NCBI RefSeq assembly: GCF_000422285.1
Contig: NZ_AULM01000033.1
Coordinates: 1 to 42,513 of the forward strand
Reading direction: 5' to 3'
Origin: Desulfatiglans anilini DSM 4660
GTDB lineage: Bacteria; Desulfobacterota; DSM-4660; Desulfatiglandales; Desulfatiglandaceae
Length of the DNA: 42,513 nucleotides
Below, one piece after another: positions 632-22,042 of this stretch (position 1 is its first letter; each line of letters starts with the position of its first letter). Both the position numbers and the translations under genes were made by a program. The notes below the pieces were generated by a model that worked only from the letters and a program-made list of their open reading frames with translations, searched no databases and was not told the origin of the DNA.

Positions 632-2395
632 TTAGAACAGGCCGGAGACCTTCCCGGTCTTCGTGTCGACGTCGATGCGGCGGAAGGCCGGGTTCGAACC
701 CGTGCCAGGCATCAGGCTGATGGTGCCGGCGCAGGGGCAGAGGAACTTGGCGCCCGAGTAGATGAGGACGTCGCGGATCGGGAGGGACCAGCCCTTCGGC
801 ACACCCTTGACCGTCGGATCGTGGCTCAGGCTCAAGTGGGTCTTGACCATCATGGTGGCGAAATCCGCATACTTCGGATCGCTCTCGAGCATCTTGGCCT
901 TGGCCTCGGCCTCGGGGGCCCAGGAAACACCGTCGGCGCCGTAGACTTCCCTGGCGATCAGGTTGACGCGGTCGCGCAGCTTCATCTCGGTCGGATACAG
1001 GAACTTGAACTCGTTCTCTTCGTTGCAGGCGTCGATGACGGCATCGGCAAACTCCAGCGCGCCTTCGCCGCCCTTTTCCCAGTGCTTGGACTCGGCGCAG
1101 CGGGCGCCGGCCGCCTCTGCGGCCTTCCGGACCAGGGCGCACTCAGCGTCCGTATCCGTATAGAACCGGTTGATGCAGACGACCGGGTTGATGCCGGACT
1201 TCCGGATCACGCCGATCATGTGGATCATATTCTCGCAGCCCTTCTCGACCAGTTCGAGGTTCTCCTTGGTGTACTCTTCGGGCAGGGCGATGCCGGGGAC
1301 GACCCTGGGGCCGCCGCCGTGCATCTTGAGGGCGCGGATGGTGGTGGTCAGAACCGAAACGTGCGGCTTCAGGCCGCTGAAACGGCACTTGACGTTCCAG
1401 AATTTCTCGAATCCGATATCGGCCGCGAACCCGCTCTCGGTCACATGGTAATCGAAGAGTTTGAGGCCGACGCGGTCGGCGATGATGGAGGACTGCCCGA
1501 CGGCGATGTTGGCGAAGGGGCCGGCATGCACCATGCAGGGGTTGTACTCGGCGGTGCACATCAGGGTCGGATTGATGGTGTTGCGCATGAAGGCCGTCAT
1601 GGCATTGCCGACTTCGAGGTCGCCGGTGGTCACCGGCTTGCCGCTCTTGTCGAAGGCCACGGTGATGTTGTTCAAACGCTCTTTCAGATCGGCCAGATCG
1701 CGGATGACGGCCAGGATCGCCATACACTCGGAGCCGACGGCGATGCCGAACTTCGACTGCATGGTATAACCGTCCTGACGCCCGCCAAGGCCGATCACGA
1801 TGTTCCTGAGCGACTGGGCGCAGAAGTCCATGATCCAGCCCATTTCGACGCGGGTGGGGTCGATGTCCAGGCGGCGCATCCCGGTCAGCCGCTTCAACTG
1901 CTCGTCGTTGTAGTTCCGCTCGTGCTGCATACGGGCGGTCATGGCCACCATCGCCAGGTTGTGGGCGTTCATGATGTCGTTGATGTCACCCGTCAAACCC
2001 AGCGAAAACTCGGTCATGGGGATCAGGAGGGAATTGCCGCCGCCTGCCGCCGTGCCTTTGACGTTCATGGTGGGGCCGCCGGAGGGCTGTCTGAGGGCGC
2101 CACCGACATTCACACCCCTCTTGCCGAGGCCTTCCATCAACCCGCACGAGGTGGTGCTCTTGCCTTCACCCAGCGGCGTCGGGGTGATGGCCGTCACTTC
2201 GATGTACTTTCCATCGGGCTTGTCCTTCAGCCTGTCGATGACTTTCAGGAAGTCCAGCTTGGCGAGCCTTCCCATGGGAAGCATCTCATCCTTCTGCAAG
2301 CCCAGTTTTTCCTGCCACTCCTCGGGAGTCGGCATGTTCTTTTCCGCGGCTTCGGAAATCTGCCAGTCAGCCATGTTTACCGCATCATAAGCCAT
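632..2395 (-). CDS. fhs: Formate--tetrahydrofolate ligase (formyl-THF synthetase)
   Basis: This 587-aa cytosolic enzyme makes 10-formyl-THF from formate, THF and ATP, the entry of formate into the methyl branch of the Wood-Ljungdahl pathway and C1 metabolism. The nucleotide-binding loop TPLGEGKST is at residues 73-81. It is followed by the family blocks [29 protein letters not shown] and, near the C-terminus, [15 protein letters not shown]. The length is somewhat above the usual ~555 aa because of the N-terminal extension seen in many Desulfobacterota homologues. I place the start at the ATG at 2395, 10 nt from an AAGGAGG. An in-frame TTG at 2404 sits only one base from that Shine-Dalgarno and is unlikely. 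The gene stands alone, closed by a strong terminator at 583-612. In a sulfate reducer it may work oxidatively or reductively; the sequence does not decide. Confidence 0.98.
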
Positions 2396-2816
2396 CTTTT
2401 GCAATCCTCCTTCTCACGTTAATGTTCCTAGTCCTTCAAAAAACCAACCCTTGTCCATTCACACGAATCCGCCGGTCGGACCTTCGCGGCCCCGCCCCGG
2501 TAATCCCCCTCGGAGCCGCCAAATCGGCGCCGCTCAAAGACTCCGGACCTCCAGGACATCTTGTCCGCGCCGTCGTCCTGCACACAACCCCTCGGTTTAA
2601 AGCGAAAAACCAGTCTTTGAAGCCCGCCTCTGCGTCGATCCGTGAGGCGACTGATACAACCGGCGGGTCGTTTCCGCACCATGTCTCGTTTCCAGGATCT
2701 CAGCCGAAGCGGAACCCGGCCCAAAGGGATGAAGGCGAGCGCGCGAAACCGGGAAGCGGCACCCTGCTGCCGGATTGCAAACTTCCCAGAACCTGATAGG
2801 CATCTCCGGCAGGATT

Positions 2817-2844
2817 CTGCTTAAAGGTCTTGGTATTTAAGCAG
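2817..2844. repeat. Perfect 9-bp inverted repeat, possible operator
   Basis: CTGCTTAAA (2817-2825) is the exact reverse complement of TTTAAGCAG (2836-2844), with 10 bases between. It sits in an AT-richer patch of an otherwise GC-rich intergenic region. A symmetric site of this spacing could bind a dimeric regulator. No T-run follows, so a terminator is unlikely. Confidence 0.4.
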
Positions 2845-3001
2845 GACTTTGCCTATCACAAAAAGAAAACAGGGTCAAGCGTAATCATGTTCATTATTTC
2901 ACGAGCAGCGCAACGATTTTCGGTTTGCCCATCCGCTCCGCAAAGTGGTATGTCTGAAACGGTCTGTCGACCGGGGAAACCCGGCCGCCGACGGCCTCGG
3001 G

Positions 3002-3109
3002 CCCGCTGCCGGGCTTGGCCGGCGGAGCCGGCAGAATCCTTACAGGGATCCTTGATCCCTGTCCGTCCAGCCTAGGCAGGTTTCGCCATGAGCCGTGGAA
3101 CCGGCTCAT
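3002..3109 (+). promoter_or_regulatory. Hairpin-rich leader upstream of proC
   Basis: Four short hairpins follow one another: CCCG/CGGG near 3002-3013; GCCGGC-GGA-GCCGGC at 3018-3032; a 9-bp perfect stem 3042-3050/3054-3062 with loop CTT; and an 8-bp perfect stem 3088-3095/3102-3109 with a 6-nt loop. The last ends five bases before the proC Shine-Dalgarno. They may form a leader RNA. No known riboswitch class is recognised and no U-run marks a terminator. Confidence 0.35.
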
Positions 3110-3127
3110 TCCAGGGAGGAACAACGA

Positions 3128-3943
3128 ATGCTTCAAGATCTGACGCTCGGTTTCATCGGCACCGGAAACATGGCCCGTGCACTGATCAAGGGCCTGACCG
3201 GGGCCCGCATCCTTCCGCCGGAAAGGATCTGCGTCTTCGACAAGGCGGCCGGCTGCCTCGACGCGGCGGCTGAAGCCTTTGCGGTCCAGCGGTGCGCCGG
3301 CAACCGGGAGGTCGTCCAGAGAAGCGACCTTTTCGTGCTCGCCGTCAAGCCTCAGAACATCCGTGACGTGCTCACCGAGATCCAGCCGGTGGTCAGGGAG
3401 GGGCAACTGGTCGTCTCCATCGCAGCCGGCATTCCGCTGCGCCTCATCCAGACCCTGCTCGCCAGAGACCTTCCAATCGTCCGCGTCATGCCCAACACGC
3501 CCGCCCTGGTCCAGGCCGGCATCAGCGCCATCGCAGGCAATCCCCGGGCCGGGCAAAACCATCTGGACCTGGTGGAGCGGATCTTCCAGGCCGTTGGACA
3601 AACCGTCATCGTGACCGAGGACCTGATGGACGCCGTCACGGCCCTTTCAGGCAGCGGGCCCGGCTACGTGTTCCGTTTGATGGAGGCCATGGTGGCGGGC
3701 GGACGCGCCGCCGGCCTGAGCGAGGAGACCGCCCTTGCCCTCGTGGTGCAGACCTTCGCCGGTGCGGCCCAGTTGGCGGCTTCGTCCCGGGAACCCCTCG
3801 CCCGGCTGCGCGAGATGGTCACCTCGCCGGGCGGAACCACAGCGGCCGGGTTGAACGTCCTGAACGAACACGGGGTGGAAGCCATCATCGTCGAGGCCAT
3901 CCAGGCCGCGTGCAGCCGTTCGCGCGAACTGGGAAAGGCCTGA
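3128..3943 (+). CDS. proC: Pyrroline-5-carboxylate reductase
   Basis: ProC (271 aa, normal length) reduces 1-pyrroline-5-carboxylate to proline with NAD(P)H, the last step of proline synthesis, in the cytosol. The N-terminal Rossmann fold shows GFIGTGNMARALIKGL at about residues 9-24. PNTPALV and the C-terminal dimerisation block ALSGSGPGYVF...SPGGTT are intact. The start is the ATG at 3128, eight bases after GGGAGG. Upstream GTG/ATG codons lack such a site. It is the first gene of a plus-strand pair with the NlpC/P60 lipoprotein, which starts 46 nt after its stop. Other proline genes are not in the window. Confidence 0.97.
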   Translation: MLQDLTLGFIGTGNMARALIKGLTGARILPPERICVFDKAAGCLDAAAEAFAVQRCAGNREVVQRSDLFVLAVKPQNIRDVLTEIQPVVREGQLVVSIAAGIPLRLIQTLLARDLPIVRVMPNTPALVQAGISAIAGNPRAGQNHLDLVERIFQAVGQTVIVTEDLMDAVTALSGSGPGYVFRLMEAMVAGGRAAGLSEETALALVVQTFAGAAQLAASSREPLARLREMVTSPGGTTAAGLNVLNEHGVEAIIVEAIQAACSRSRELGKA

Positions 3944-7417: not shown

Positions 7418-7519
7418 CATCCGGAAATAATTTCCCGGTAGAACCCGGTTTCCAATCCGGAAATGAGGATTTTTCTTCACACGCTGCGCGTGCTCAGTCC
7501 CACCGCTAACCGGCGGGAC
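7418..7519 (-). repeat. Dispersed MITE-like repeat, copy B, overlapping the end of the cyclase gene
   Basis: This is an inverted, truncated copy matching the right half of the complete copy C. It has the terminal block CATCCGGAAAT from 7418, TTTCCAATCCGGAAAT near 7450-7465, a hairpin CACGC-TGC-GCGTG at 7480-7492, and a hairpin 7497-7505/7511-7519. The last hairpin holds the TAG stop of the upstream gene in its loop. In transcripts of this strand the stem keeps a G-U pair that is also present in copies A and C. Confidence 0.8.
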
Positions 7520-10500
7520 ACTTTTCGGCCATGGCCTCCCGAATCCGCTCTTCGAGCAAGACCGCGCCCATTTTCGACGCCAGTTCCAGGGCCTCTCGAA
7601 GCGATTTCGCAGCGGCCTTACGGCGCGATCCGCAAAGCAGCGTCCCCCTCACCAGAAGCGCCCGGGCCTGGTGGCGCCGCGCCCCGGTTTTTTTGGCCAT
7701 CCGGAGCGCCTGAGCGACATGCCCGGCAGCCTCCTTCTGTTCACCAAGCCTTCCGTAAAGCTCGCCGAGCCCGATCAGGAGCCGCGTCTTGTAGCGCCAG
7801 CGCGTATAAGAGATACCCGGCTTGCGCAGTTCGCTCCAGACCTCGTCGAGGATCTCCCGGGCAGCGCCGAGATCGCCCATCTGCAGCAGGTTCTCCCCCA
7901 TGTTGATCCGGGCGTTGTAAATCGTCTCGGGATCGCCTGTCACCAGAGCATCCTTCCAGGCCTCGGTGTTCAGATCCAAGGCCTCTTTCAGCTCACCCCC
8001 CTCTGCATGGACCCAGCCGAGGGTGTTCATGAATCGCGGCCTCCAGAAGCGGCCGTCGCCCTCCTCCAGGCTTTTCAACCCCGAAAGCAGAGAACTCCTG
8101 CTCTTGTCCAGATTCCCCAGGGCCCCGTGGATCAATCCGCTCCGGAAAAGAGACAGGATTCTGAAATAGGGGCTCTTGATCTTTTCGTTGAAGGCTGCCA
8201 GGGATTCGTTCAGTTCAAGCGCCGCCTGATAGTCGCCGGTCCAGTTGTAATACTGCACGAGGTGGGCCGCCGCCCACGCCCGCGCCTCTAAATCCTGTTC
8301 CCGATCACTGTCTTCGCGCGCCTTCAGCAACAGCGGACGCGCCTTTTCGAGTCTGCCCAGCACCGCATAGACAAACCCCAGGAAACTTCGAGCCTTCAGA
8401 ACCAGGAGGGGCCATCCGCCCTTCCGGCCCGCCTCGATGGTCGCGAGCAGAAACTTCTCGGCCGAACGTGGACGGTGGAGATAAAAGGAAATCCAGCCCA
8501 GCCGGAAAAGGGCTGTCGTCTCCAGGAAGCGGTCGCCGGTCCGCTGAGCTTCATTACGCATCCTCTCGAAGGCGCCGTGAGCCTCTTCCATCTGCCCTAC
8601 GCAATAATGCATCCGGCCTTTCCAATGGAAGATCTCGGCGGTCTTGACCGGCGGGGTTTCGAAGCGGGCCCGCCTCAGGATGTCGAGGGAGCGTTCGAGC
8701 GAGGCGAGCGCTTCATGGCAGGCGTAAGCATAGCGCGCCTGCCTTCCGGCCTTGAGCGTGTAAGTGAGCGCTTTGTCCCAGACACCGGCGTAATAGAAGT
8801 GGTAGGCCATCTTCCCTATCCGGCCGGCAGGGTCCTGTGCAGGCACGTTCTCCAGGGCTTCCCCCGCCAGCCGGTGCAGATGGACGCGCTCCCGACGCAG
8901 AAGGGTGTGGTAGGCCACCTCCCACATCATCGGATGAATGAAGCGGAAGGCGGCATCTTCGGAATCTCCCAGCCTGTTCAACCTTTCGACGATGCCCTCT
9001 TTTTCGAGCGCCGCGAGGCGATCGTCGAGGTCGGCTCCTTCCTGCCCAACCGCCTTGAGCATGCCGCGCGAAAAATCATGCCCGATCACGGAGGCCGCCT
9101 GGACCGTCCACTTCAGCCCACCCGAGAGGGCATCCAGTCGAGCTGCCAGGACGCCGTGGATGTTGTCCGGAATATCGATCGCATCGACCGGCAGCTTCAG
9201 GACACAGCGGTCGGGCCCGCAGACCATCAGGTGCCGCCGCAGCAGAGTACGGCCCATTTCGACCACGAACAAAGGGTTTCCACCTGCCTTGGAAACCAGG
9301 TCCCTGGTAAGCCGCTCCTCCAGAAGACGGGTCTTGAGGACCGAAACCAGCAGATCCTTCGCATCGCGGTCGGAAAGCGGCGCGAGATGGATCGAGTGTC
9401 TGACCAGCATCGTCATCCAGGGAACGGGGGCGGAACGCCCGGCACAGATCACCAGGATCGGCGAGTGTTCCCTGGACTGTGCAAGAAAGGTCAGAAACTC
9501 GCGCGTGGTGCCGTCGACCCACTGCATGTTGTCGATGAAAAGGATCAGCGGTCTGCGGGCTGCAGCGGCCACGAGCACAGCCTGTATCTCCCTGAAAAGG
9601 ATCCGTTTCCTTCCAGCCAGAGCGGTCTCCGACTCCCCCTCCACCCGTTGAATCGTCCAGAAGCGCGCCACAACATCGCGCAGCCGCCGCCTCACGGCTT
9701 CATCGCTCACCCGTTCATCCAGCAGTCTCTCCAGTTCCCCCTCGGACTCCTGCCCGGAAAGCCTGAAATAGCCTCTGAAAGCCGCCATCAAAGAGTGAAA
9801 GGCAGCCGTCTCCCCATACGGCCGGCACCCGCCCCTTAAAACCAATACGCCTTCCGTCTCCTTAGCACGGCAATAAACATTCAGAAGACGCGACTTGCCG
9901 ACGCCGGCTTCGCCGGTCACGAGCATCAAACGCGGCCCGCCCTTGCACGCCTCGACAAAAGACGCATCCAGAAGTTCCATCTCTTTCTTGCGATCGAGAA
10001 AAGGGGTCTCCTCCATATCCGATGAAACGCCCTCCGGCTCCTCCGATTCGCCCAGGAGTTGGAAGGCACGCACGCTTTCGGACTTGCCTTTGACGTCCAG
10101 GAACCCCCTGTCCAGGAATCGGAAATAAGGCTGAACACTCTCCCAAACCCGCTCCGAAACGAGGATCCCCCCGGGCGGCGCGAGCGACTGCAGCCTTGCG
10201 GCCAGGTTCGTCGTGTCTCCCAGAGCGGTGTAGTCCAGCCTGAGATAGTCCCCGATGGCCGCCACCACCACCAGTCCGGTGTGAATGCCGATGCGCATTC
10301 TGAAGACGATCCCGTGGCGATCTTCGAGCCGCCGCCCGTAGGGCTCCAGGGCGCGCTGGACCGCCAGCGCCGCGCGGCAAGCCTGCCGGCTGTGATCCTC
10401 ATAGGCGACCGGCGCGCCGAACAGGGCCATGACGCCGTCGCCCGTATACTGATTGATGGTGCCCCCCGCCCCATGGATGGCCTTTCCCAGGATCTCGAAG

Positions 10501-10853
10501 CACCCATCCATAATCTGGTGGACATCCTCAGGATCGAGCTGTTCCGAAATCCCGGTAAAATTCGCTATGTCAGCGAAAAGGACGGAGACGCGCTTTCTCT
10601 CCCCCTCCTTCAGATAGTGTCCCCTGAGGATCTTTTCCATAAGAAAGGGAGGGGTATAGCCGGACGTCTGCCGGTCTGCATTGCGGCTGTTCGATGCAGG
10701 CGAGCCCAGCGGCGCCCCGCACCTTCCGCAGTAGGCGAATTCCCCCGGCACTTCGGCCCCGCATCGCTCGCAGCGGCGCGGAAGCGCCTTTCCACAGCGG
10801 GTGCAGAGCCGCGCGTCGTCGGCATTTTCAAATTGACACTCCGGGCACTTCAT
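7506..10853 (-). CDS. Zinc-ribbon / class III nucleotidyl cyclase / AAA-type ATPase / TPR signalling protein
   Basis: This 1115-aa cytosolic protein has four regions. Two zinc ribbons come first (Cys 3, 6, 17, 20 and 28, 31, 42, 45). A class III cyclase domain spans about residues 85-265; its metal aspartates are Asp94 in FADIANFT and Asp138 in QYTGDGV, with ALGDTTNLAARL near 209-220. An ATPase domain has the P-loop GEAGVGKS at 313-320 and the Walker B-like LILFIDNMQWVD. The C-terminal half is rich in helical repeats of TPR type. This architecture belongs to the predicted-ATPase adenylate/guanylate cyclases; the cyclic nucleotide and the signal cannot be told. I start at the ATG opening MKCPEC (10853) rather than 19 codons upstream. 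The last codons (CPAG) and the stop lie in repeat copy B, so the original C-terminus may have been replaced. Confidence 0.92.
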   Translation of the reverse strand: MKCPECQFENADDARLCTRCGKALPRRCERCGAEVPGEFAYCGRCGAPLGSPASNSRNADRQTSGYTPPFLMEKILRGHYLKEGERKRVSVLFADIANFTGISEQLDPEDVHQIMDGCFEILGKAIHGAGGTINQYTGDGVMALFGAPVAYEDHSRQACRAALAVQRALEPYGRRLEDRHGIVFRMRIGIHTGLVVVAAIGDYLRLDYTALGDTTNLAARLQSLAPPGGILVSERVWESVQPYFRFLDRGFLDVKGKSESVRAFQLLGESEEPEGVSSDMEETPFLDRKKEMELLDASFVEACKGGPRLMLVTGEAGVGKSRLLNVYCRAKETEGVLVLRGGCRPYGETAAFHSLMAAFRGYFRLSGQESEGELERLLDERVSDEAVRRRLRDVVARFWTIQRVEGESETALAGRKRILFREIQAVLVAAAARRPLILFIDNMQWVDGTTREFLTFLAQSREHSPILVICAGRSAPVPWMTMLVRHSIHLAPLSDRDAKDLLVSVLKTRLLEERLTRDLVSKAGGNPLFVVEMGRTLLRRHLMVCGPDRCVLKLPVDAIDIPDNIHGVLAARLDALSGGLKWTVQAASVIGHDFSRGMLKAVGQEGADLDDRLAALEKEGIVERLNRLGDSEDAAFRFIHPMMWEVAYHTLLRRERVHLHRLAGEALENVPAQDPAGRIGKMAYHFYYAGVWDKALTYTLKAGRQARYAYACHEALASLERSLDILRRARFETPPVKTAEIFHWKGRMHYCVGQMEEAHGAFERMRNEAQRTGDRFLETTALFRLGWISFYLHRPRSAEKFLLATIEAGRKGGWPLLVLKARSFLGFVYAVLGRLEKARPLLLKAREDSDREQDLEARAWAAAHLVQYYNWTGDYQAALELNESLAAFNEKIKSPYFRILSLFRSGLIHGALGNLDKSRSSLLSGLKSLEEGDGRFWRPRFMNTLGWVHAEGGELKEALDLNTEAWKDALVTGDPETIYNARINMGENLLQMGDLGAAREILDEVWSELRKPGISYTRWRYKTRLLIGLGELYGRLGEQKEAAGHVAQALRMAKKTGARRHQARALLVRGTLLCGSRRKAAAKSLREALELASKMGAVLLEERIREAMAEKCPAG

Positions 10854-10921
10854 GAACGCTTCGTTCCTCAACCGTCGGCCGCGCCGCCGGCATTCTTCTC
10901 TGGATCCCAAAAAGCCCGCAC

Positions 10922-11016: not shown

Positions 11017-12789
11017 TCAGTTCACCGCCTCCAGCGCGCACCCGTCCGCATCCTGGTAGAGGATCAGGATTCGGCCAGGATCCTTCAGAAAGGTAAAATC
11101 GATCAGGTCTTTTTCGTACTGATCGGATTCCCACGTCTGCCGGATCCGGTCGCCAAGCCACTTGACCGCCACCAACTGATCGTAATCGCGCCGTCCGGCT
11201 ACGAGCTTTTCGGCAAAACCGGCAAGCATCCCTCTCCGCCCTTTGCTGATCGTGAACACCTGCCCGTCGAAGTCCTTCCGCATCTCGAACCTTCGGGCCG
11301 TATAGACGTCGTCGTGGGCCCTGCGGTCGAATCCTCCTATAAAGATGTCCTCCTCCAACTTGAGCGGATAGGTGGTGACCTCGTAATTCCCCAACCCGAC
11401 CTCTCCGAATGCAGCCAGGCGTTCTTCAGGTGTTACATATCCGTGCAGGCTGCCGTCCTTTTCGAGGATGATCACCCGGTTTTCCGCCCCCGGAGCCGGA
11501 TTGAATTGATAGAGGGAATAAACCCCTGCGGCCGGCGCATAGGGCTCGGTGATGTCTGGCGCGCCGGATGCTTCGTTCCACTTCAGACGGTAGATCGGCC
11601 CATCGTATTGACGGTAGTCTCCTTCCTTCTGTGCCAGCGCCGCTTGCCCCCCCGCCGCATCCTGAATCACCCGCAGGTAATAAGGGAGCTCCTCCGCGAC
11701 GGATGTCAACACCCCGTCGCGAAAGGTCACGATCGACGACATCAGCCGGTTGTCCTGCTTGTCGAGGGTCATGACCGGCAGAGTCATGGTGAGTAGCAGT
11801 TCGTCTCCACCGTCGGCATCAAGATCGCAGGCGTGGAGATGCAGCGGAATGATCCCCGGATGTGGATACCGTAATCGGCCGACCGCTTTCAAAACGCCGT
11901 CCTCCGCCTGATAAACGATCAGGTCACGCTCCCCCAGACAGGCGAACAGGATCGCTCCCTCCGCCTCGAGCCGGCAGGCGGCGACCCGGCTTGCAGGCTC
12001 CTGCAGCCGGAAGTGCTCCAGGCTTCGGGCAGGTTTGGAATGCTGAAACGATGGCGCCGACGACTCGGCAGGGGCATCACCGGAGGAGGAGCGACTCATT
12101 GCTTCAGGCTGCGCGGCCCCCTGGGCCCCGCCAGGGTAGATCGACCCGCCGCTCGAGAACTCCTGCGCCGTCCTGTAGAAGATGACCCGGCCTTCCTCGA
12201 CCGTGCTGAGCCTACAGATGAGGACCCCCTCCCCGCGCATCAGTTCCAGTTTCAGATCGTGGCGTTGCGCGGGGGGACCCTCGCGGCCGTCCGCATGCAT
12301 ATCCAGATAGTAACCCTTGGAAAGGAGTTCCTGCACCAGCCCATCGAAAAAGGGAGCACCGCCGGGCCGCAGGACATCGCCGCGGACTTGGATTCGGGGT
12401 GGAGGCGGTGTAACCACACGGTCTCCGGGCGAAAGCGGCGCACCCGGGGCATCCACGACGCGTACCAGAGCTGTTTCAGGCGACACCGTCTCGAGGACGA
12501 CCCACGCCGCCGGGGCCTTCAGAGCCGGGGAGCGATCCGGATCCTCTTTCGAGATGCACAGCCATTCTCCCACCTTCAAGGGCACAGCCCCTTTCTCGAT
12601 GAGAAGACGATCGTCTCCCGCCTCTTTCACACGGCCGACAGTACGGAAGGGGATTCCGACATATTCATCCAGGAAGCTGACCAAAGAAGGAAAAGGGTTC
12701 TGCTTCGTCTCCCCGCGGGCAGGCATCACCGCCAGAGAAACCAAACCTAAGACCGTCAGCGGTATCCAACACCCCTTGCAAGATCTCAT
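11017..12789 (-). CDS. Secreted protein of unknown function with a VCBS/FG-GAP-like calcium motif
   Basis: A 590-aa protein with a clear signal peptide (about 26 residues, cleavage after ARG). The N-terminal third resembles small beta-barrel modules with repeated VGRV/G-x-x-V patterns. A Ser/Pro/Ala-rich linker covers about 225-255. The remainder looks like a beta-propeller with one DLDADGGDELLL motif near residue 325, typical of calcium-binding VCBS/FG-GAP repeats. The start codon follows GGAGG by 10 nt. It is the last gene before the terminator, 130 nt after the porin gene, which suggests a periplasmic or surface role linked to the outer-membrane channels. I do not recognise a named family and propose no reaction. 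Confidence 0.8.
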   Translation of the reverse strand: MRSCKGCWIPLTVLGLVSLAVMPARGETKQNPFPSLVSFLDEYVGIPFRTVGRVKEAGDDRLLIEKGAVPLKVGEWLCISKEDPDRSPALKAPAAWVVLETVSPETALVRVVDAPGAPLSPGDRVVTPPPPRIQVRGDVLRPGGAPFFDGLVQELLSKGYYLDMHADGREGPPAQRHDLKLELMRGEGVLICRLSTVEEGRVIFYRTAQEFSSGGSIYPGGAQGAAQPEAMSRSSSGDAPAESSAPSFQHSKPARSLEHFRLQEPASRVAACRLEAEGAILFACLGERDLIVYQAEDGVLKAVGRLRYPHPGIIPLHLHACDLDADGGDELLLTMTLPVMTLDKQDNRLMSSIVTFRDGVLTSVAEELPYYLRVIQDAAGGQAALAQKEGDYRQYDGPIYRLKWNEASGAPDITEPYAPAAGVYSLYQFNPAPGAENRVIILEKDGSLHGYVTPEERLAAFGEVGLGNYEVTTYPLKLEEDIFIGGFDRRAHDDVYTARRFEMRKDFDGQVFTISKGRRGMLAGFAEKLVAGRRDYDQLVAVKWLGDRIRQTWESDQYEKDLIDFTFLKDPGRILILYQDADGCALEAVN

Positions 12790-12919: not shown

Positions 12920-14401
12920 TTACCACACCCAGATGAACTCGATCGTGTTTATGATGGCCGTTTCGTCGTTGCCGTTCCCCGTGATCGGGTCCCAGATATC
13001 CTGAACGGCCTGCCCTGGCCTGAAGACTGTGAAACAGTTGCCGATGCTGAAATGCTTGTTGAAATTATAGGTGAGAAGGAAGTCGAACTCAAGCCCAACC
13101 TCGTCGTCTATGGGACGACCGAGCAGTGTTTGCAGCCCGTCGGAGGTATCGAACATGAGATACATGGCCTGGGCCTTATAGGAAAGCGCCCCGAAGGCCC
13201 CCTTGGCACCGGCACCCAGCATCAGGAGACCCGGCGCATCACCTGAGGAACTGTTGCTGATGCCGCCGTATCCTGGCGTTTGGGCCACTCCCAGCACTTT
13301 GGGCAGCCAGTTGAAGTTGCCGCTGTAGAGGTGCGTACCCAGGGTCGGCACAAGCCGGTAGAGAAACGCGTTCTCCATCCCGAAGGTAGGTGTATACCGC
13401 GCGATGTCACCGATCGAGTTGAAGGCGTCGATGTCCTGGTCCGTCGGATCGTCGTCCCCCTGCTCCCATTTGAAGCCGGCGTAGGGAATAAACCTCGGAT
13501 CCACCTCGAAATCCACTGACCCGTAAGCGGCGAACGCATTGATGTCATAAGCGCGGCCATGTTCGTCCGCATGGGTGTCTCCTGTCGCCCAAACCACTTC
13601 GAATCGCGGGGTGAACCGGCCCACCTTCCCGTACATCTCCGCCCCAAGGTAATGCACCTGCGCATACTGGGTGTCCTTGTTGTTGTCACTGAAGGCGTAG
13701 AAGGGGGAAATCGCCAAGGGTCCCATCTGGTAAACGCTCTTGAGTCCGTAGACACGCCAGTCGAGGCTATCCGCATCGAGGGGACCGATTGCCTTCCCCT
13801 TATCCATGTTTTCGATCTTGTCGAAGATGCTCAGAAACAGGGCTTGCCATCTGAAGTCCGGGCCGATCTTGCCCGTCAAGCTGATGTAGGGGTGATCATC
13901 CCCGTAGACCAAACCGCCGGTGTTGATGTCCAGTTGCTGGGTGTTCCAGCCCGTATGAACGGCCACTGGGCCGAAGTCATAACTCACGTTGAGTTTTTCG
14001 ACCCCGAAATCCTCGCCGGTCATTCCGCTGTCCACCGGAGTGGAGGAGTCCGCCCCGCGGTCGGCGTTCTCCTTGTTCAGCGTAAAATCGCCTTCCAGAA
14101 TGATCATGAAATCCCAATTCTTGCCCTTCCCGAGCCATCCGAGCCGTATTTCGTTGCGGATCCCGAAATCGGCCATCGGACCGTTTTCATCCAGGATGTA
14201 GTCTCGCGTCGTGTCGATCTTGTTGAAATCGAGGTTGTCCATGAAGGTGGGATACATCTTCAGGCTCCCGAAAAAATCGATTTCGATATCCTTGCTCTTG
14301 GGCGACATCTCTCCGATCTCCGCCGAGGCCGTCGCCGCGAAGCAGCAAAGAATCCACCCGAAACAGGCCACCCGCCATAACATTCGATTTCTCCTCTTCA
14401 T
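12920..14401 (-). CDS. Outer-membrane beta-barrel porin
   Basis: A 493-aa protein with a signal peptide ending at TASA. Its sequence is aromatic- and glycine-rich with alternating hydrophobic residues, and it ends in an aromatic residue (FIWVW), a typical outer-membrane barrel insertion signal. Its size fits a 16- to 18-strand barrel of the alginate-export/phosphoselective porin type, but the substrate is unknown. I use the ATG at 14401, nine bases from GGGGAGG. An ATG 15 codons upstream has no ribosome-binding site and would spoil the signal peptide. The gene lies 83 nt downstream of the DsrE-like gene and 130 nt upstream of the secreted protein, and is probably cotranscribed with both. Confidence 0.85.
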   Translation of the reverse strand: MKRRNRMLWRVACFGWILCCFAATASAEIGEMSPKSKDIEIDFFGSLKMYPTFMDNLDFNKIDTTRDYILDENGPMADFGIRNEIRLGWLGKGKNWDFMIILEGDFTLNKENADRGADSSTPVDSGMTGEDFGVEKLNVSYDFGPVAVHTGWNTQQLDINTGGLVYGDDHPYISLTGKIGPDFRWQALFLSIFDKIENMDKGKAIGPLDADSLDWRVYGLKSVYQMGPLAISPFYAFSDNNKDTQYAQVHYLGAEMYGKVGRFTPRFEVVWATGDTHADEHGRAYDINAFAAYGSVDFEVDPRFIPYAGFKWEQGDDDPTDQDIDAFNSIGDIARYTPTFGMENAFLYRLVPTLGTHLYSGNFNWLPKVLGVAQTPGYGGISNSSSGDAPGLLMLGAGAKGAFGALSYKAQAMYLMFDTSDGLQTLLGRPIDDEVGLEFDFLLTYNFNKHFSIGNCFTVFRPGQAVQDIWDPITGNGNDETAIINTIEFIWVW

Positions 14402-14484
14402 CCCTCTCGTCCTCCCCTTCAACCTTCTGATAGAATGGGTTTTCATTCAATTTCGGATGCCTTTCAACGGAGGCACCCGATCGA

Positions 14485-16700: not shown

Positions 16701-18383
16701 TCACTCCTTGGCAGGTCTCAGCATCAGAAAAGACCAGAGGTTTCCGACACCGCCCGGCTGAGGCACCCATCCCATCAGCCGGTCAATCCTCACTGCATCG
16801 ATCTTCTTCTTCGAATAAAGCGGGATATACGGCAATTCCTGTGCGATCAGCCGCTGCATCCCAACGACGTGTTCTTTCCTATTCAACGGATCGACTTGCC
16901 TCTGCGCCGATTCCGCCAGGCGATCGAATTCGGCGTTCTTGAACCCCGGGTAATTCTTACCCCCCAGCCGGGCCTCGCGGCTGTGGAAGAAGGTATTCAG
17001 ATAAGCCGGCTCGTCGGAGAGATTGGTCCACCCCATCAGGTAGACATCGAATTCACCGGCGGAAAGGGCCTTCAAGAGATCCTGGAGCGCCAGCATCCGG
17101 ATTGTGACCGGAATTCCCAGCCGGGCCAGCCATTTTTTCAGCAGCAGCGCCGCCGCGAACCGGTCGGGGCGGCAGCCTGCCGGAGTCGTCAGCAGCTCCA
17201 TCGGAGGCATCTTGTCTCCCGTCGGCAGCACCAGCGAATTTTTCTCCCAGGTATACCCCGCCTTCCGGAGCGATTCCCTGGCATCATCGAGCCGCGCGTC
17301 ATCATCGGCAAGGCCGTCACCCGGCAGTTGCAGCTGCGCATCGCACCAGAAGGCATTGTGCGGCGGTATGACGCTCCTTGCAGGCGCGACATCCCCCGCG
17401 AACGCCTTGTCGATCATAGCCTCCCGGTCAATCAGCGCAGCCACAGCCTGCCGAAAAGCACGGTCATTGTATGGAGGGCGCCGTAGATTGAAACCCAGAT
17501 AATCATATCCCCTGCGGTCGGTACGGAAGAACTGAAGCCCCGGTTCGTTCTTCAACTCCTTTACAGATTCTTCGCAGACATCCCCGGCATAAAAGTCGAT
17601 TTCACCATTCTTCAAGGCCGCGAGCGCCTCCCCTACGTTCCGGTAAACGTGGAAAACCACCCAATCGACATAGGGGCCGACCTGCATCCCGGCAATACAT
17701 TCCCCTTGTGCAAAGAAGTGTGGATTGCGCTTCATCAACACGAAATCGTGCGAGGGATCGTTCACGATGCTGAAAGGGCCGCTGCTAGGCACCCTGTCCG
17801 GCTTCAAACCGGTCAAACGCCGGACGGCATTCTCCGTTCCTTCCAACGGCTGGATCAGCGGCGCCCACGCCTTCTTCTGAAGGAACGGCGTCAAAAGGGT
17901 CTCGTTGAAAAAGGCGGCGCTGGGCTCCTTGAGGATAAACCGGATCGTACGCGGATCGAGCGCCTCCACGCGCTCCACCATCTGCCAGTGCTCCACGTGA
18001 CCGGGGACATTGAATCGTCGGATCACCTCCCAGGTATAGAGCAGGTCATCGCTCGAGACCGGGGTGCCGTCATCCCAGTGCGCCTCCTTGAGCCTGACCG
18101 TTACGATGGTGCCTTTTGGATCGGATTCCGGCTTCCGTTCCGCAATCCAGGGAAGAACCGACCCGTCGCGGGGGTCTCTGATGTAAAGCGGCATGTGGAT
18201 CAGCCGCAGGACTTTCCTGGACCAGACGTCGGTCGCCCCAAGGAAATTCATGGACCTCGGGCCGCTCAGAACGCCGACGTGCAGGGATTCCCCCTTGGGC
18301 GATTCCCCGGCTTCCGCCGGTTCGAGCAGGCCGGCCCACAACGCGACGACGGCCGCAAGAATCATGCATTTGAGCATTTTCAT
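16701..18383 (-). CDS. ABC transporter solute-binding protein, family 5 (peptide/nickel type)
   Basis: A 560-aa periplasmic protein with a signal peptide ending at EPAEA. It carries the family-5 sequence RLKEAHWDDGTPVSSDDLLYTWE-type block near residue 105, NPHF, and DYLGFNLRRPPYNDRAFRQAVAALIDR in the second lobe. The start follows GGAGG by six bases. The usual permease and ATPase genes are absent, and the neighbours are an octaheme cytochrome (45 nt upstream) and outer-membrane channels. It may therefore deliver a ligand to a periplasmic enzyme, share a distant transporter, or act as a sensor. The ligand cannot be told from sequence. Confidence 0.9.
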   Translation of the reverse strand: MKMLKCMILAAVVALWAGLLEPAEAGESPKGESLHVGVLSGPRSMNFLGATDVWSRKVLRLIHMPLYIRDPRDGSVLPWIAERKPESDPKGTIVTVRLKEAHWDDGTPVSSDDLLYTWEVIRRFNVPGHVEHWQMVERVEALDPRTIRFILKEPSAAFFNETLLTPFLQKKAWAPLIQPLEGTENAVRRLTGLKPDRVPSSGPFSIVNDPSHDFVLMKRNPHFFAQGECIAGMQVGPYVDWVVFHVYRNVGEALAALKNGEIDFYAGDVCEESVKELKNEPGLQFFRTDRRGYDYLGFNLRRPPYNDRAFRQAVAALIDREAMIDKAFAGDVAPARSVIPPHNAFWCDAQLQLPGDGLADDDARLDDARESLRKAGYTWEKNSLVLPTGDKMPPMELLTTPAGCRPDRFAAALLLKKWLARLGIPVTIRMLALQDLLKALSAGEFDVYLMGWTNLSDEPAYLNTFFHSREARLGGKNYPGFKNAEFDRLAESAQRQVDPLNRKEHVVGMQRLIAQELPYIPLYSKKKIDAVRIDRLMGWVPQPGGVGNLWSFLMLRPAKE

Positions 18384-18428: not shown

Positions 18429-19850
18429 TCATGGACGTTTCCGCTCCTTTGGACCCTCAGGGCCGGAGACCAATCGTCCGCCTGCAACAGCGGGATCCCC
18501 CGGGTATCCAAGAGCCTCGAAGTCCATCAACGCCTTTGCACCGTGGCAGTCCATGCATCCCAATGCCTGCTCCTTGGGGGCCACCCCGTGGTTCAAGCGC
18601 CAATGCATGACGGTCGTCACGAACGTAGACTTCCCGCTGTAAGGCAATTCCGCCTCTTTCATCCCGGACCGGATGGCCCTTTCCCAATCGAAATGCTCCC
18701 AGTATCCGCCCCACAGCTCCGGAACGAGCAGGTACTGGAATGTCGCGTCGGCTGGCTGAACGCCCGTGTGGATCTTGAAAGGGGTGATCTTCGCCTCGGG
18801 ATCCTGGATGCCCCCTGCAGGAGGGTTGAGGTATGTCGTTCCGGTCACATCGACCCGCTCCCCCATGCGGTAGCGCTCGTGTCGGCCGTTGTACCATGCA
18901 TAGGCCGGCGCAACGTTCGCCTTCTTGATGAAGAGGCCCTTTTTGCGGTGCTGGGTGGTGATGCAATAGGGCGAGTTCTCCAGTTCCTTGGTATCCCTTC
19001 CTGCGAGGGCCCAGTTCCAGAAAAGCAGCGTCGGCTTGGCCTTCGCAAACGTCGGGATGTGGCAGGTCTCACAGGCGATGGCATCACAGTGATCGTTCAG
19101 CGTTTTCTGGACTGCGTGCCGGTCGGTGGCATGAGGCCTTTCGTCATGGCAATCCGTGCAGGACACCCGCCCCTCGCTCACACAGGTGGTCATACTGGCT
19201 CCCGCAATACGATGCCCGTTCGTGGTGTGGCAGTCCTGGCAGGCGAAATCCAACCCGCCCATGTGGACATCCAACTCCCGGGGAGGATCGATGAGGGCCT
19301 CGCTCAGATTGCCGTGCTTGATGGCGTCCCCACCGCCGCCGCAAAAATGACAAGACCCGCAGTTGGCCCGTGTCGGACGCCCGACACCACGGGCGATCTT
19401 CACCAGGTCGAGCCCTTTCTTTTCATCCCCGCAGCCCGCCGGTGCCTTTTCGTAAGACCCTGTACGGTCGTGGCACACCAGGCAATCGACCCTCGATGGA
19501 TCCTTGAAATCAAACGTGTTTTCCTTCCAACCGTAACCCGCATGGCAGCTGGTGCAACTGCACCAGTTCGCAATCGGGGAAATTCAGAAGTTGTTGATAA
19601 GATTTGCCTTTCCCAAGGGCTCTTTCGCCTCGCCCTCGAGGTATGGGTTGGGGCCCTTCCATTGCCAGTGGGCTGTCTGCATGACCTCCGACGCAGCCTC
19701 CTCGTGGCAGCCGAGGCACGTCCGGGTCACAGAGGGACCGTCCGGGAACGGACCTTCTATTTCCTGATGCGACGAGGCCTGTGCGCAGACCGCCAAAAGA
19801 ACACCCGCAACGCCTCCAAAAACCGCGGCCTTGAAAGATAAGCTGAACAT
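18429..19850 (-). CDS. Octaheme c-type cytochrome, tetrathionate reductase (OTR) family, putative selenoprotein (Sec89)
   Basis: Read through one UGA, this is a 473-aa exported protein with signal peptide MFSLSF...AQAS and eight CxxCH heme sites: CLGCH, CTSCH, CLVCH, CGSCH, CQDCH, CTDCH, CETCH and CMDCH. Family members reduce tetrathionate, nitrite or hydroxylamine at a Lys-ligated heme. As I recall, the Shewanella enzyme's active site includes Asn61, Cys64, Asp150 and Lys153. With a constant offset of 25 these fall on Asn86, UGA89, Asp175 and Lys178 here, so the UGA stands at the active-site Cys. The frame is open on both sides and a SECIS-like hairpin follows. Without readthrough only a one-heme fragment is made. 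The start is placed by the signal peptide; its ribosome-binding site is poor. The divergent sigma-54 activator is the likely regulator. Confidence 0.88.
19549..19566 (-). promoter_or_regulatory. Candidate bacterial SECIS element
   Basis: A perfect 7-bp stem, CUGGUGC/GCACCAG in the mRNA, closes on the loop AGUU. The loop begins 24 nt after the UGA and has G as its second base, matching the bacterial SECIS rules (loop 16-37 nt away, G in the first two loop positions). The hairpin overlaps codons for Trp96 to Ser101, just before the second heme site. Confidence 0.72.
19584..19586 (-). other. In-frame UGA, predicted selenocysteine codon (Sec89)
   Basis: The codon context is INNF-UGA-IS, where homologues, as I remember them, read INNFC. 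The eight-heme reading frame continues on both sides without a shift. Confidence 0.78.
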
Positions 19851-20656
19851 ACCGATTTTCCGATCCTTTCTGCATAACCCACCATCGGCGGGCCGTTTTG
19901 CAACCCAGCCACAACCCATGATGGACAGCCAAACGGAGCCGCCGGCCTGCGGCCCCTTTATCCTGTCATAGATCCCTGGGGGTTTCAGGCCGTGGGCATC
20001 GAACATCGCCAACGCGATCCTGCCGCATCATCCTGCCTGGCAGACGCCTGAGATTCAATGGTCTCTGTGGCAAAATCAATGCCAACCCCCTGCCCGCCAC
20101 GCTCCCGCCTCATCCCCGAAGGATTCCGAAGGCCAGCGGGCAGCCTGGCAAAAAAGCCCGGATCCCTTTGGTAAGACGTACAAAATCGATTGCTTGCAAA
20201 CTGATCTGCACCTTTATTCATCAAACGCGAATGCGCGCTCAGGCCTTGACAGACCGGGAATAATACCTTGGGAGGGCAGTGAAGGTTCAACCGGAATGGA
20301 CAGGCCGATTTTAAATGTCTTTCCATGGCAACGCCTGGGTCTTTTAGCCTAAAACGTATCCAAAGCAAACAGTTTCGGTTGCAGAAAGCGACTTGAAGGA
20401 GTAAACTTTTCAAGTTAACAGTTGTTCATTTTTAAACACTCATTACACCATTGGTTGCATCCGGCGCACAAGCCACCGCACCCTTCAGGCGGGTTGGACC
20501 GGTTTTCCGAAATGAACCCCTCCACCCCTTGGCGCGGGGACCCTTGACCTTTGCCGCTCACCCGAGTTTGCCGACCCCGGCAAAGCCGACCCCCGTGGAC
20601 GCTTTATCTTTCATGACCGGCGGAAAACGCCGCCAACTGACAGCGGAAAGGACTCC
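19851..20656. other. Divergent regulatory region between cytochrome and sigma-54 activator
   Basis: An 806-nt region without a convincing gene; a 142-codon minus-strand frame at 19985-20413 has no ribosome-binding site or recognisable domain. It contains a candidate -24/-12 site (20068-20083) and an AT-rich stretch at 20403-20450. Activator binding sites for the sigma-54 regulator are expected here, but I could not define a repeated motif. Confidence 0.5.
20068..20083 (+). promoter_or_regulatory. Possible sigma-54 (-24/-12) promoter
   Basis: TGGCAAAATCAATGCC keeps the essential GG and GC with exactly 10 bases between, plus TGGCA at -24. The -12 part (ATGCC) is imperfect. It points toward the activator gene, 574 nt away, so its role is uncertain. 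Confidence 0.25.
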
Positions 20657-22042
20657 ATGAACGGGTTGGATCTGAACAGCCATTGGAAAACAGTCGTCAG
20701 CACCATCCAGGACGGCCTGATGATCGTCGACCAGACAGGAACCATCCGGTTCGTCAACCCTGCCCTGGCCAAGATGACAGACTATGCACCGGACGAACTG
20801 ACCGGCATGCCCTGCTCCTCGCTGAATTGCGATGTCTGCGAGATTGCGCGGGCCCCGGGGCGCGGTTCCTGGTGCGTCCTGTTCCAGGAGGGTGCGATCC
20901 CGCCCCACCGCTGCACCCTGCGGCGAAAAGACGGAACGATGGTGCCGGTCCTGAAAAATGCAGCGCTTCTAAGGGATGCAGAAGGGACCGTCATCGGGGC
21001 GGTCGAGACGCTCACGGACCTGACCGAGCTCAATCGGCGCGATCTGCAGATTCAGTCCTTCACGCGGGAATTGGCGGATCAGAAAGGTTTTCAGGGGATC
21101 CTGGGGGTCTCGGTGCGAATGCAGAAGGTCTTCGATCTCCTGGCAAACGCCGCGAGCTCCGATGCGCCGGTCCTGATCCTCGGTGAAAGCGGCACGGGGA
21201 AGGAACTCGCAGCGAGGGCCATCCACCGCCTGGGGCCCCGACGTGACAAACCATTCATCAAGGTCAATTGCGCCGCGCTGAACGAGGCCCTTCTCGAAAG
21301 CGAGCTGTTCGGGCACGTACGAGGCGCCTTCACGGGGGCCTACCGCGACCGGGAAGGCCGCTTCGAAGCCGCCCACGGAGGCGACATCTTCCTGGACGAG
21401 GTCGGCGATCTGCCTTTTTCGACCCAGGTTAAACTCCTGCGTGTCCTCGAGGAGAAAACCATCGAAAAGGTGGGGGATCAACGCCTGATCCGAGTCGATG
21501 TCCGGATCGTTTCGGCCACGAACCGTGAGGTCGCGCAATTGGCTGCGGAAGGCAAAATCCGCCAGGATTTTTTCTACCGGATCAACGTGATCCCGATCCG
21601 CCTGCCTCCCCTTCGCAAACGCATCGAAGACATCCCGATCCTTGCGGAACATTTCCTCGAAAGGCTGCGGAAAAAAAGCCGAAAACCGGTTCAGGGGATC
21701 AGCAGCGCCGCCCTGGGATGCCTGATGGACTATTCCTGGCCCGGCAACGTGCGCGAGTTGAAAAGCGCCTTCGAGTACGCCTTCATTTCCTGCCACCAAA
21801 CGCTCATACAGCCCGAACATCTTCCATCGGAAATCTCCGGCGGGAAAAGGAAGGCCTCTCCATCCACCACTCCGAAGGGAAGCACACTGAACGATCAGAA
21901 ACGGCAACGGCTTCTTGAAGCCCTTCAAACCGCAGGCGGGAACCAGTCCGAGGCCGCGCGCATCCTGGGCATTTCTCGTGTGACGGTCTGGAACCGGATC
22001 AAGAAATATGGGATCGATCTCGAGAAGAAGGTCTCCGGTTAG
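20657..22042 (+). CDS. PAS-domain sigma-54-dependent transcriptional activator
   Basis: A 461-aa enhancer-binding protein in three parts. The N-terminal PAS domain (about 10-125) contains a Cys cluster (Cys53, 58, 61, 73, 86). The AAA+ domain has Walker A GESGTGKE at 176-183 and the sigma-54-contacting GAFTGA at 223-228. A Fis-type helix-turn-helix occupies about 430-455 ([21 protein letters not shown]). The start follows AAGGA by about 5 nt. The Cys cluster in the PAS domain suggests a metal, heme or redox signal, but the ligand is not known. It is divergent from the octaheme cytochrome gene and is the obvious candidate to switch on the cytochrome-transport module. Confidence 0.95.

Follow-up and report, generated by a model that had tools for sequence, protein, structure and literature searches.

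The octaheme locus and its interrupted frame

We analysed a 42,513-nt stretch of DNA from Desulfatiglans anilini DSM 4660 (hereafter the window), in which the gene under study lies on the reverse strand. The gene, the elements within it and its closest neighbors are:

18429..19850, - strand: gene for a putative selenocysteine (Sec)-containing octaheme c-type cytochrome of the octaheme tetrathionate reductase (OTR) family, 473 aa, Sec at residue 89 (TIGR04315, phmmer, structural model)
19584..19586, - strand: TGA codon, probably read as Sec, residue 89, equivalent to Cys64 of Shewanella OTR (conserved TGA column)
19593..19595, - strand: codon of Asn86, equivalent to Asn61 of OTR (1SP3 alignment)
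19317..19319, - strand: codon of Lys178, matching the lysine that ligates the catalytic heme of OTR (aligned to Lys153 of 1SP3)
19542..19556, - strand: heme-2 motif CTSCH, residues 99-103, whose first codons form the 3' arm of the SECIS
19549..19566, - strand: predicted bacterial SECIS hairpin CTGGTGC-AGTT-GCACCAG (7-bp perfect stem, -11.1 kcal/mol)
19560..19562, - strand: TGC codon of Cys97, within the SECIS 5' arm, an extra cysteine found in Sec forms only
16701..18383, - strand: family 5 solute-binding protein, 45 nt downstream (PF00496, E 3.9e-61)
20657..22042, + strand: divergent PAS and sigma-54 activator, a candidate regulator (Pfam Sigma54_activat, PAS_9)
20070..20084, - strand: sigma-54-like promoter TGGCATTGATTTTGC, ~220 bp upstream of the start codon

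The 473-residue frame (19850-18429) is open except for the internal TGA, in the context INNF-UGA-ISP, and its terminal stop at 18429-18431, likewise a TGA. It contains eight CxxCH motifs (residues 45, 99, 123, 164, 204, 231, 260 and 432), in agreement with the original prediction of a single octaheme frame broken by the UGA alone, and its N-terminal segment looks like a signal peptide. Read through, the frame scores 524 bits against TIGR04315, the tetrathionate-reductase-family octaheme cytochrome profile (curated cut-off 375 bits), and covers positions 4-440 of 440. A phmmer comparison with the Shewanella oneidensis OTR (SO4144, PDB 1SP3) gave an E-value of 1.7e-133, with an alignment across residues 27-454, nearly end to end. 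The first ATG, GTG or TTG start past the TGA is a GTG at 19478, from which a mechanical gene caller would obtain a 349-residue protein with five intact heme motifs but with neither signal peptide nor heme 2. The expectation that automatic annotation would leave a one-heme fragment and a remainder lacking a signal peptide thus holds, while the seven hemes assigned to that remainder should be five.

The TGA stands in place of an active-site cysteine

In the alignment with 1SP3, Asn86, the UGA at 89, Asp175 and Lys178 lie opposite Asn61, Cys64, Asp150 and Lys153, at an offset of 25. These residues and the single offset were part of the original prediction, and both counting in the 1SP3 chain and the alignment bear them out. 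Asn86 and Lys178 are identical in all 58 aligned sequences, conservation of the Cys/Sec column is 90% or higher, and Asp175 varies among homologues. Position 89 is ten residues ahead of the heme-2 motif. In OTR, heme 2 is the catalytic heme and is ligated by a conserved lysine (PMC11024163); Lys178 is the predicted heme-2 ligand in the window protein.

An AlphaFold model, computed from 58 sequences comprising the window gene and fetched loci, had a mean pLDDT of 91.5 and a pTM of 0.89. Foldseek returned 1SP3 as the sole significant solved match (E 1.6e-48, TM 0.88/0.90), and the predicted model appears to have the OTR fold. The two proteins share this fold, the eight heme motifs, the active-site asparagine and the heme-2 lysine, and differ in that the window gene has a predicted Sec for Cys64, an mRNA hairpin, and the additional cysteines Cys97 and Cys170. 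Cys170 (HFC before GGGGD) was considered as a general partner of Sec and ruled out, since the window gene shares it with only two other loci (L018 and L019).

The in-frame TGA is conserved among homologues

Of 61 genomes searched, the window's own and 60 near relatives, seven encode a full-length OTR interrupted by a single TGA. One of the seven is another member of the genus; its assembly is a single 4.8-Mb contig, and it encodes a 95%-identical OTR with the same TGA. In a survey of 395 genomes of the phylum, OTR genes above the cut-off were found in 68, and of the 77 such genes 30 contained one TGA. After fetching DNA, the motif around residue 89 could be read in 84 loci, including the window gene: 34 have TGA, 48 have Cys, one has Leu (L024) and one has Thr (L025). 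The in-frame TGA of the Sec loci is invariably at this column. The original prediction had proposed checking whether homologues hold Cys in this column and whether other genomes have TGA as well; Cys or Sec is found in 82 of the 84 loci. Homologues with neither residue had been named as evidence that would count against the prediction; they amount to the Leu and Thr forms, which leave the general pattern standing. Because those two forms exist, the Cys/Sec residue is, as far as sequence can tell, dispensable in some members of the family.

A divergent OTR-like subfamily (L098 and L099), at 188 bits under the TIGR04315 cut-off, has a TGA at the matching place (YUAPPNTVAGHNW), and a hairpin like that of the main family is not obvious in either locus. 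The L098 frame lies at around 2078-3271 on the + strand. Since 34 of 84 loci share the TGA at this position, as do these two divergent members, the TGA at 19584-19586 is, by this comparison, not an error.

A SECIS-like hairpin accompanies the TGA

The predicted hairpin has its 5' arm CTGGTGC at 19560-19566, its loop AGTT at 19556-19559 and its 3' arm GCACCAG at 19549-19555. Counted from the TGA, the stem begins at 17 nt and the loop at 24 nt. The original description, a 7-bp perfect stem with an AGUU loop about 24 nt downstream, proved exact, and the stem length, loop, spacing and folding energy are all within published limits for bacterial SECIS elements (PMC13188914). Rfam at gathering thresholds matched nothing in the window. 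By itself the window stem is modestly unusual, as about 7% of synonymous shuffles attain 7 bp. The strength of this evidence comes instead from the hairpin recurring in Sec loci and being missing in Cys forms. In 31 of 34 Sec loci the longest perfect stem measures 7 or 9 bp, whereas in the 48 Cys loci it never exceeds 5 bp and averages 3.6, the same as the mean of synonymous shuffles. The three Sec loci without a perfect 7-bp stem are L085, in which one stem pair has turned to G-U, and L022 and L023, where the only hairpin is bulged and weaker (-7.4 and -6.0 kcal/mol).

The common hairpin of Sec loci is CTGGTGC-AGGT-GCACCAG. One locus (L097) carries a paired double change in the outer stem pair, from C-G to T-A, and three others (L060, L061 and L087) have an unrelated hairpin, GCAACGA-GGC-TCGTTGC, four nucleotides closer to the TGA. 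Compared with the fetched SECIS sequence of Escherichia coli fdhF, the main hairpin shares GCAGGT and GCACC; E. coli fdhF has GGTTGCAGGTCTGCACC where most Sec-OTR genes have GGTGCAGGTGCACC. The Sec-OTR hairpin differs in lacking the extra U in the 5' arm, in its shorter loop, and in a spacing from TGA to loop that is about 7 nt longer.

Selenocysteine machinery is encoded in the genome

The selA, selB, selC and selD genes, which the prediction called for, are all represented in the window genome: SelA (627.3 bits), SelB (387.5 bits), SelD (367.4 bits, itself with one TGA) and tRNA-Sec (71.7 bits, with anticodon TCA assigned by ARAGORN). The genome also encodes a formate dehydrogenase, FdhA (1364 bits), with one TGA. 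All 35 Sec-OTR genomes surveyed have selB, tRNA-Sec or both, and those missing one are fragmented assemblies. Nearly all genomes of the phylum with Cys-form OTR have the machinery too, so it indicates compatibility with Sec insertion and not an association with the Sec form, and we rejected the presence of selB and tRNA-Sec as a discriminating test.

An additional cysteine is encoded by the hairpin stem

Of the 34 Sec forms, 29 have Cys97, and the 50 other forms all lack it. The protein sequence here is N-W-C-[R/S]-C-T-x-C-H in Sec forms that use the main hairpin. Where the loop encodes Arg, 28 of 31 Sec forms have the codon AGG, compared with 1 of 34 Cys forms, in which CGN is nearly always used. 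The three Sec forms with the alternative hairpin have Ala at position 97, and two other Sec forms have Ser. The simplest reading is that Cys97 is a by-product of the SECIS, with the hairpin dictating these residues, because the stem includes the TGC codon and forms with the alternative hairpin have Ala.

As a variant within the Sec interpretation, Cys97 might instead be a functional partner forming a selenenylsulfide with Sec89. Its near confinement to Sec forms was striking at first and made it a candidate resolving cysteine. Yet Sec occurs with Ala or Ser at position 97, the codon itself makes up part of the 5' arm, and on the tree the trait requires only two changes; a functional partnership is thus unlikely, and the stem explains the distribution better.

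Evolution, paralogue and genomic context

On an OTR tree built with the Sec region masked, five changes between Sec and non-Sec forms are forced by well-supported branches, with gains and losses indistinguishable by count. The identical hairpin in two distant clades may reflect common descent followed by losses, or convergence on a sequence preferred by SelB. The window genome also contains an intact Cys-form paralogue (L044 of genome G000, C6:46091-47434). This paralogue has a sigma-54 regulator of its own close by, and a sigma-54-like site lies upstream of it.

In two Sec-OTR fusion proteins (genomes G029 and G041), the OTR part follows an NrfD membrane domain and a region of class III cytochrome type. 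The fusions (L134:7793-11056 and L135:2203-5496, both on the - strand) are single proteins of ~1,100 aa with 12 CxxCH motifs in all and an NrfD domain of the polysulfide-reductase type. Cys-type OTR genes with frames of similar length are present in other genomes. NrfD-type proteins exchange electrons with quinones. Because the fusion occurs in two Sec relatives, it suggests a link to the quinone pool in those organisms, with the pool as electron source at least in the NrfD-fused Sec forms.

Around the window gene, the family 5 solute-binding protein has homologues adjoining Sec-OTR in four further genomes, and relatives of the divergent PAS/sigma-54 activator are found at 11 related OTR loci of both Sec and Cys types. 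The sigma-54-like site at 20070..20084 is the sole match in the window, with 0.34 expected by chance, and similar sites lie upstream in only 9 of 84 loci; it is a weak candidate for the promoter of the octaheme gene. A dsrA gene (579 bits) makes the organism a probable sulfite or sulfate reducer. Elsewhere in the window, 7506-10910 (- strand) encodes a large adenylate/guanylate cyclase with AAA and TPR regions that resembles TOMM kinase/cyclase proteins, under that family's cut-off. The frames at 11017-12789 and 12920-14446 (- strand; 590 and 508 aa) had no confident family, and their homologues lie on Sec-OTR contigs of two other genomes (G001 and G022).

Discussion

The DNA itself shows the reading frame, a conserved TGA, the hairpin and genes for the Sec machinery, and we infer that Sec is inserted in vivo. 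The TGA could reflect faulty sequencing or a mutation that recently inactivated the gene; the gene would then be a pseudogene or would truly read TGC or TGT, and the window genome is a 107-contig assembly. However, the identical TGA in the single-contig genome of the second genus member, its presence in the same column of 32 further loci and the intact remainder of the frame leave this account with a negligible probability. A TGC, a TGT or an indel at 19584-19586, named in the original prediction as fatal to it, is countered by the same recurrence in independent genomes.

Readthrough happens at leaky UGA codons generally, and the codon could be read as another amino acid, by near-cognate readthrough or by reassignment to Trp, rather than as Sec. 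This seems very improbable in a genome with a complete Sec machinery, in a family whose homologues carry Cys and not Trp at the column, and with a hairpin that accompanies TGA and is absent with Cys. Wholesale reassignment in particular is unlikely because TGA still stops this same gene at 18429-18431. That two truncated proteins are made on purpose, an 88-residue one-heme peptide and a downstream multiheme protein, we consider extremely unlikely. A mechanical gene caller would output both; yet c-type hemes are attached outside the cytoplasm, the product from the GTG at 19478 would have no signal peptide, no heme 2 and five heme motifs, and both flanks of the TGA are conserved as one protein.

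With a probability of about 95%, the gene encodes a periplasmic OTR-family octaheme cytochrome in which SelB and tRNA-Sec, guided by the hairpin at 19549-19566, would decode UGA89 as Sec. Very probably, the product acts as a periplasmic octaheme reductase and has Sec next to its Lys-ligated catalytic heme, where Sec would replace Cys64 of OTR alongside the invariant Asn86 and the predicted heme ligand Lys178. The selenolate of Sec89 could serve as a nucleophile or as a proton/electron partner at heme 2, with the remaining hemes delivering electrons for the reduction of a sulfur, nitrogen or similar oxyanion. A selenolate at this heme may alter its chemistry with such oxyanions, as the original prediction proposed. 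Compared with Cys, Sec is a stronger nucleophile and is easier to oxidise, and might permit faster attack on a sulfur or other oxyanion substrate. More tentatively, and at slightly less than even odds, Sec89 may take a direct part at Lys-ligated heme 2, either as the catalytic nucleophile or by binding the iron transiently; the enzyme would then be a heme-selenolate respiratory reductase whose substrate range differs from that of the Cys enzyme in the same genome.

Shewanella OTR reduces tetrathionate, nitrite and hydroxylamine; its cellular role is unclear and has been called cryptic (PMC11024163). The Sec form of TIGR04315 is already catalogued, and the window gene is not a new kind, since a review table (Zhang et al., May 2026; PMC13188914) lists a GenBank-annotated tetrathionate reductase family octaheme c-type cytochrome of TIGR04315 with one Sec (WP_331457571.1). 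That entry shares the family and the single Sec with the window protein, and the table gives no motif or position. Another heme selenoprotein, ExtKL, was found in a 2007 stop-codon survey (PMC1914089). The Geobacter protein (GSU2937-2936) is likewise a deltaproteobacterial c-type multiheme cytochrome with an in-frame TGA and one Sec, but has five hemes and belongs to another family. A word search of a 2022 review (PMC9312934) gave no tetrathionate entry, and a search of the open literature found nothing on Cys64 of OTR. No paper on the Sec site, SECIS or function of Sec TIGR04315 was found in a search that was thin on subscription papers. In the literature searched we did not find the Sec position, the SECIS sequences, the distribution of the Sec form or the NrfD fusions. 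The present analysis adds the exact position of Sec, two SECIS sequences unrelated to each other, the two NrfD fusions, and Cys97 as a probable SECIS by-product.

Few selenoproteins carry heme, and here Sec would lie at the presumed substrate site. The OTR family also offers a case of an RNA signal shaping a protein, with Cys97 accompanying one SECIS sequence and absent with the other. The presence of Sec and Cys OTR side by side in one genome makes a direct comparison of the two possible. Because 30 of 77 OTR genes above the cut-off in the phylum survey carry a TGA and would be broken in two by gene calling that is blind to Sec, such genes may be overlooked when sulfur and nitrogen respiration is surveyed.
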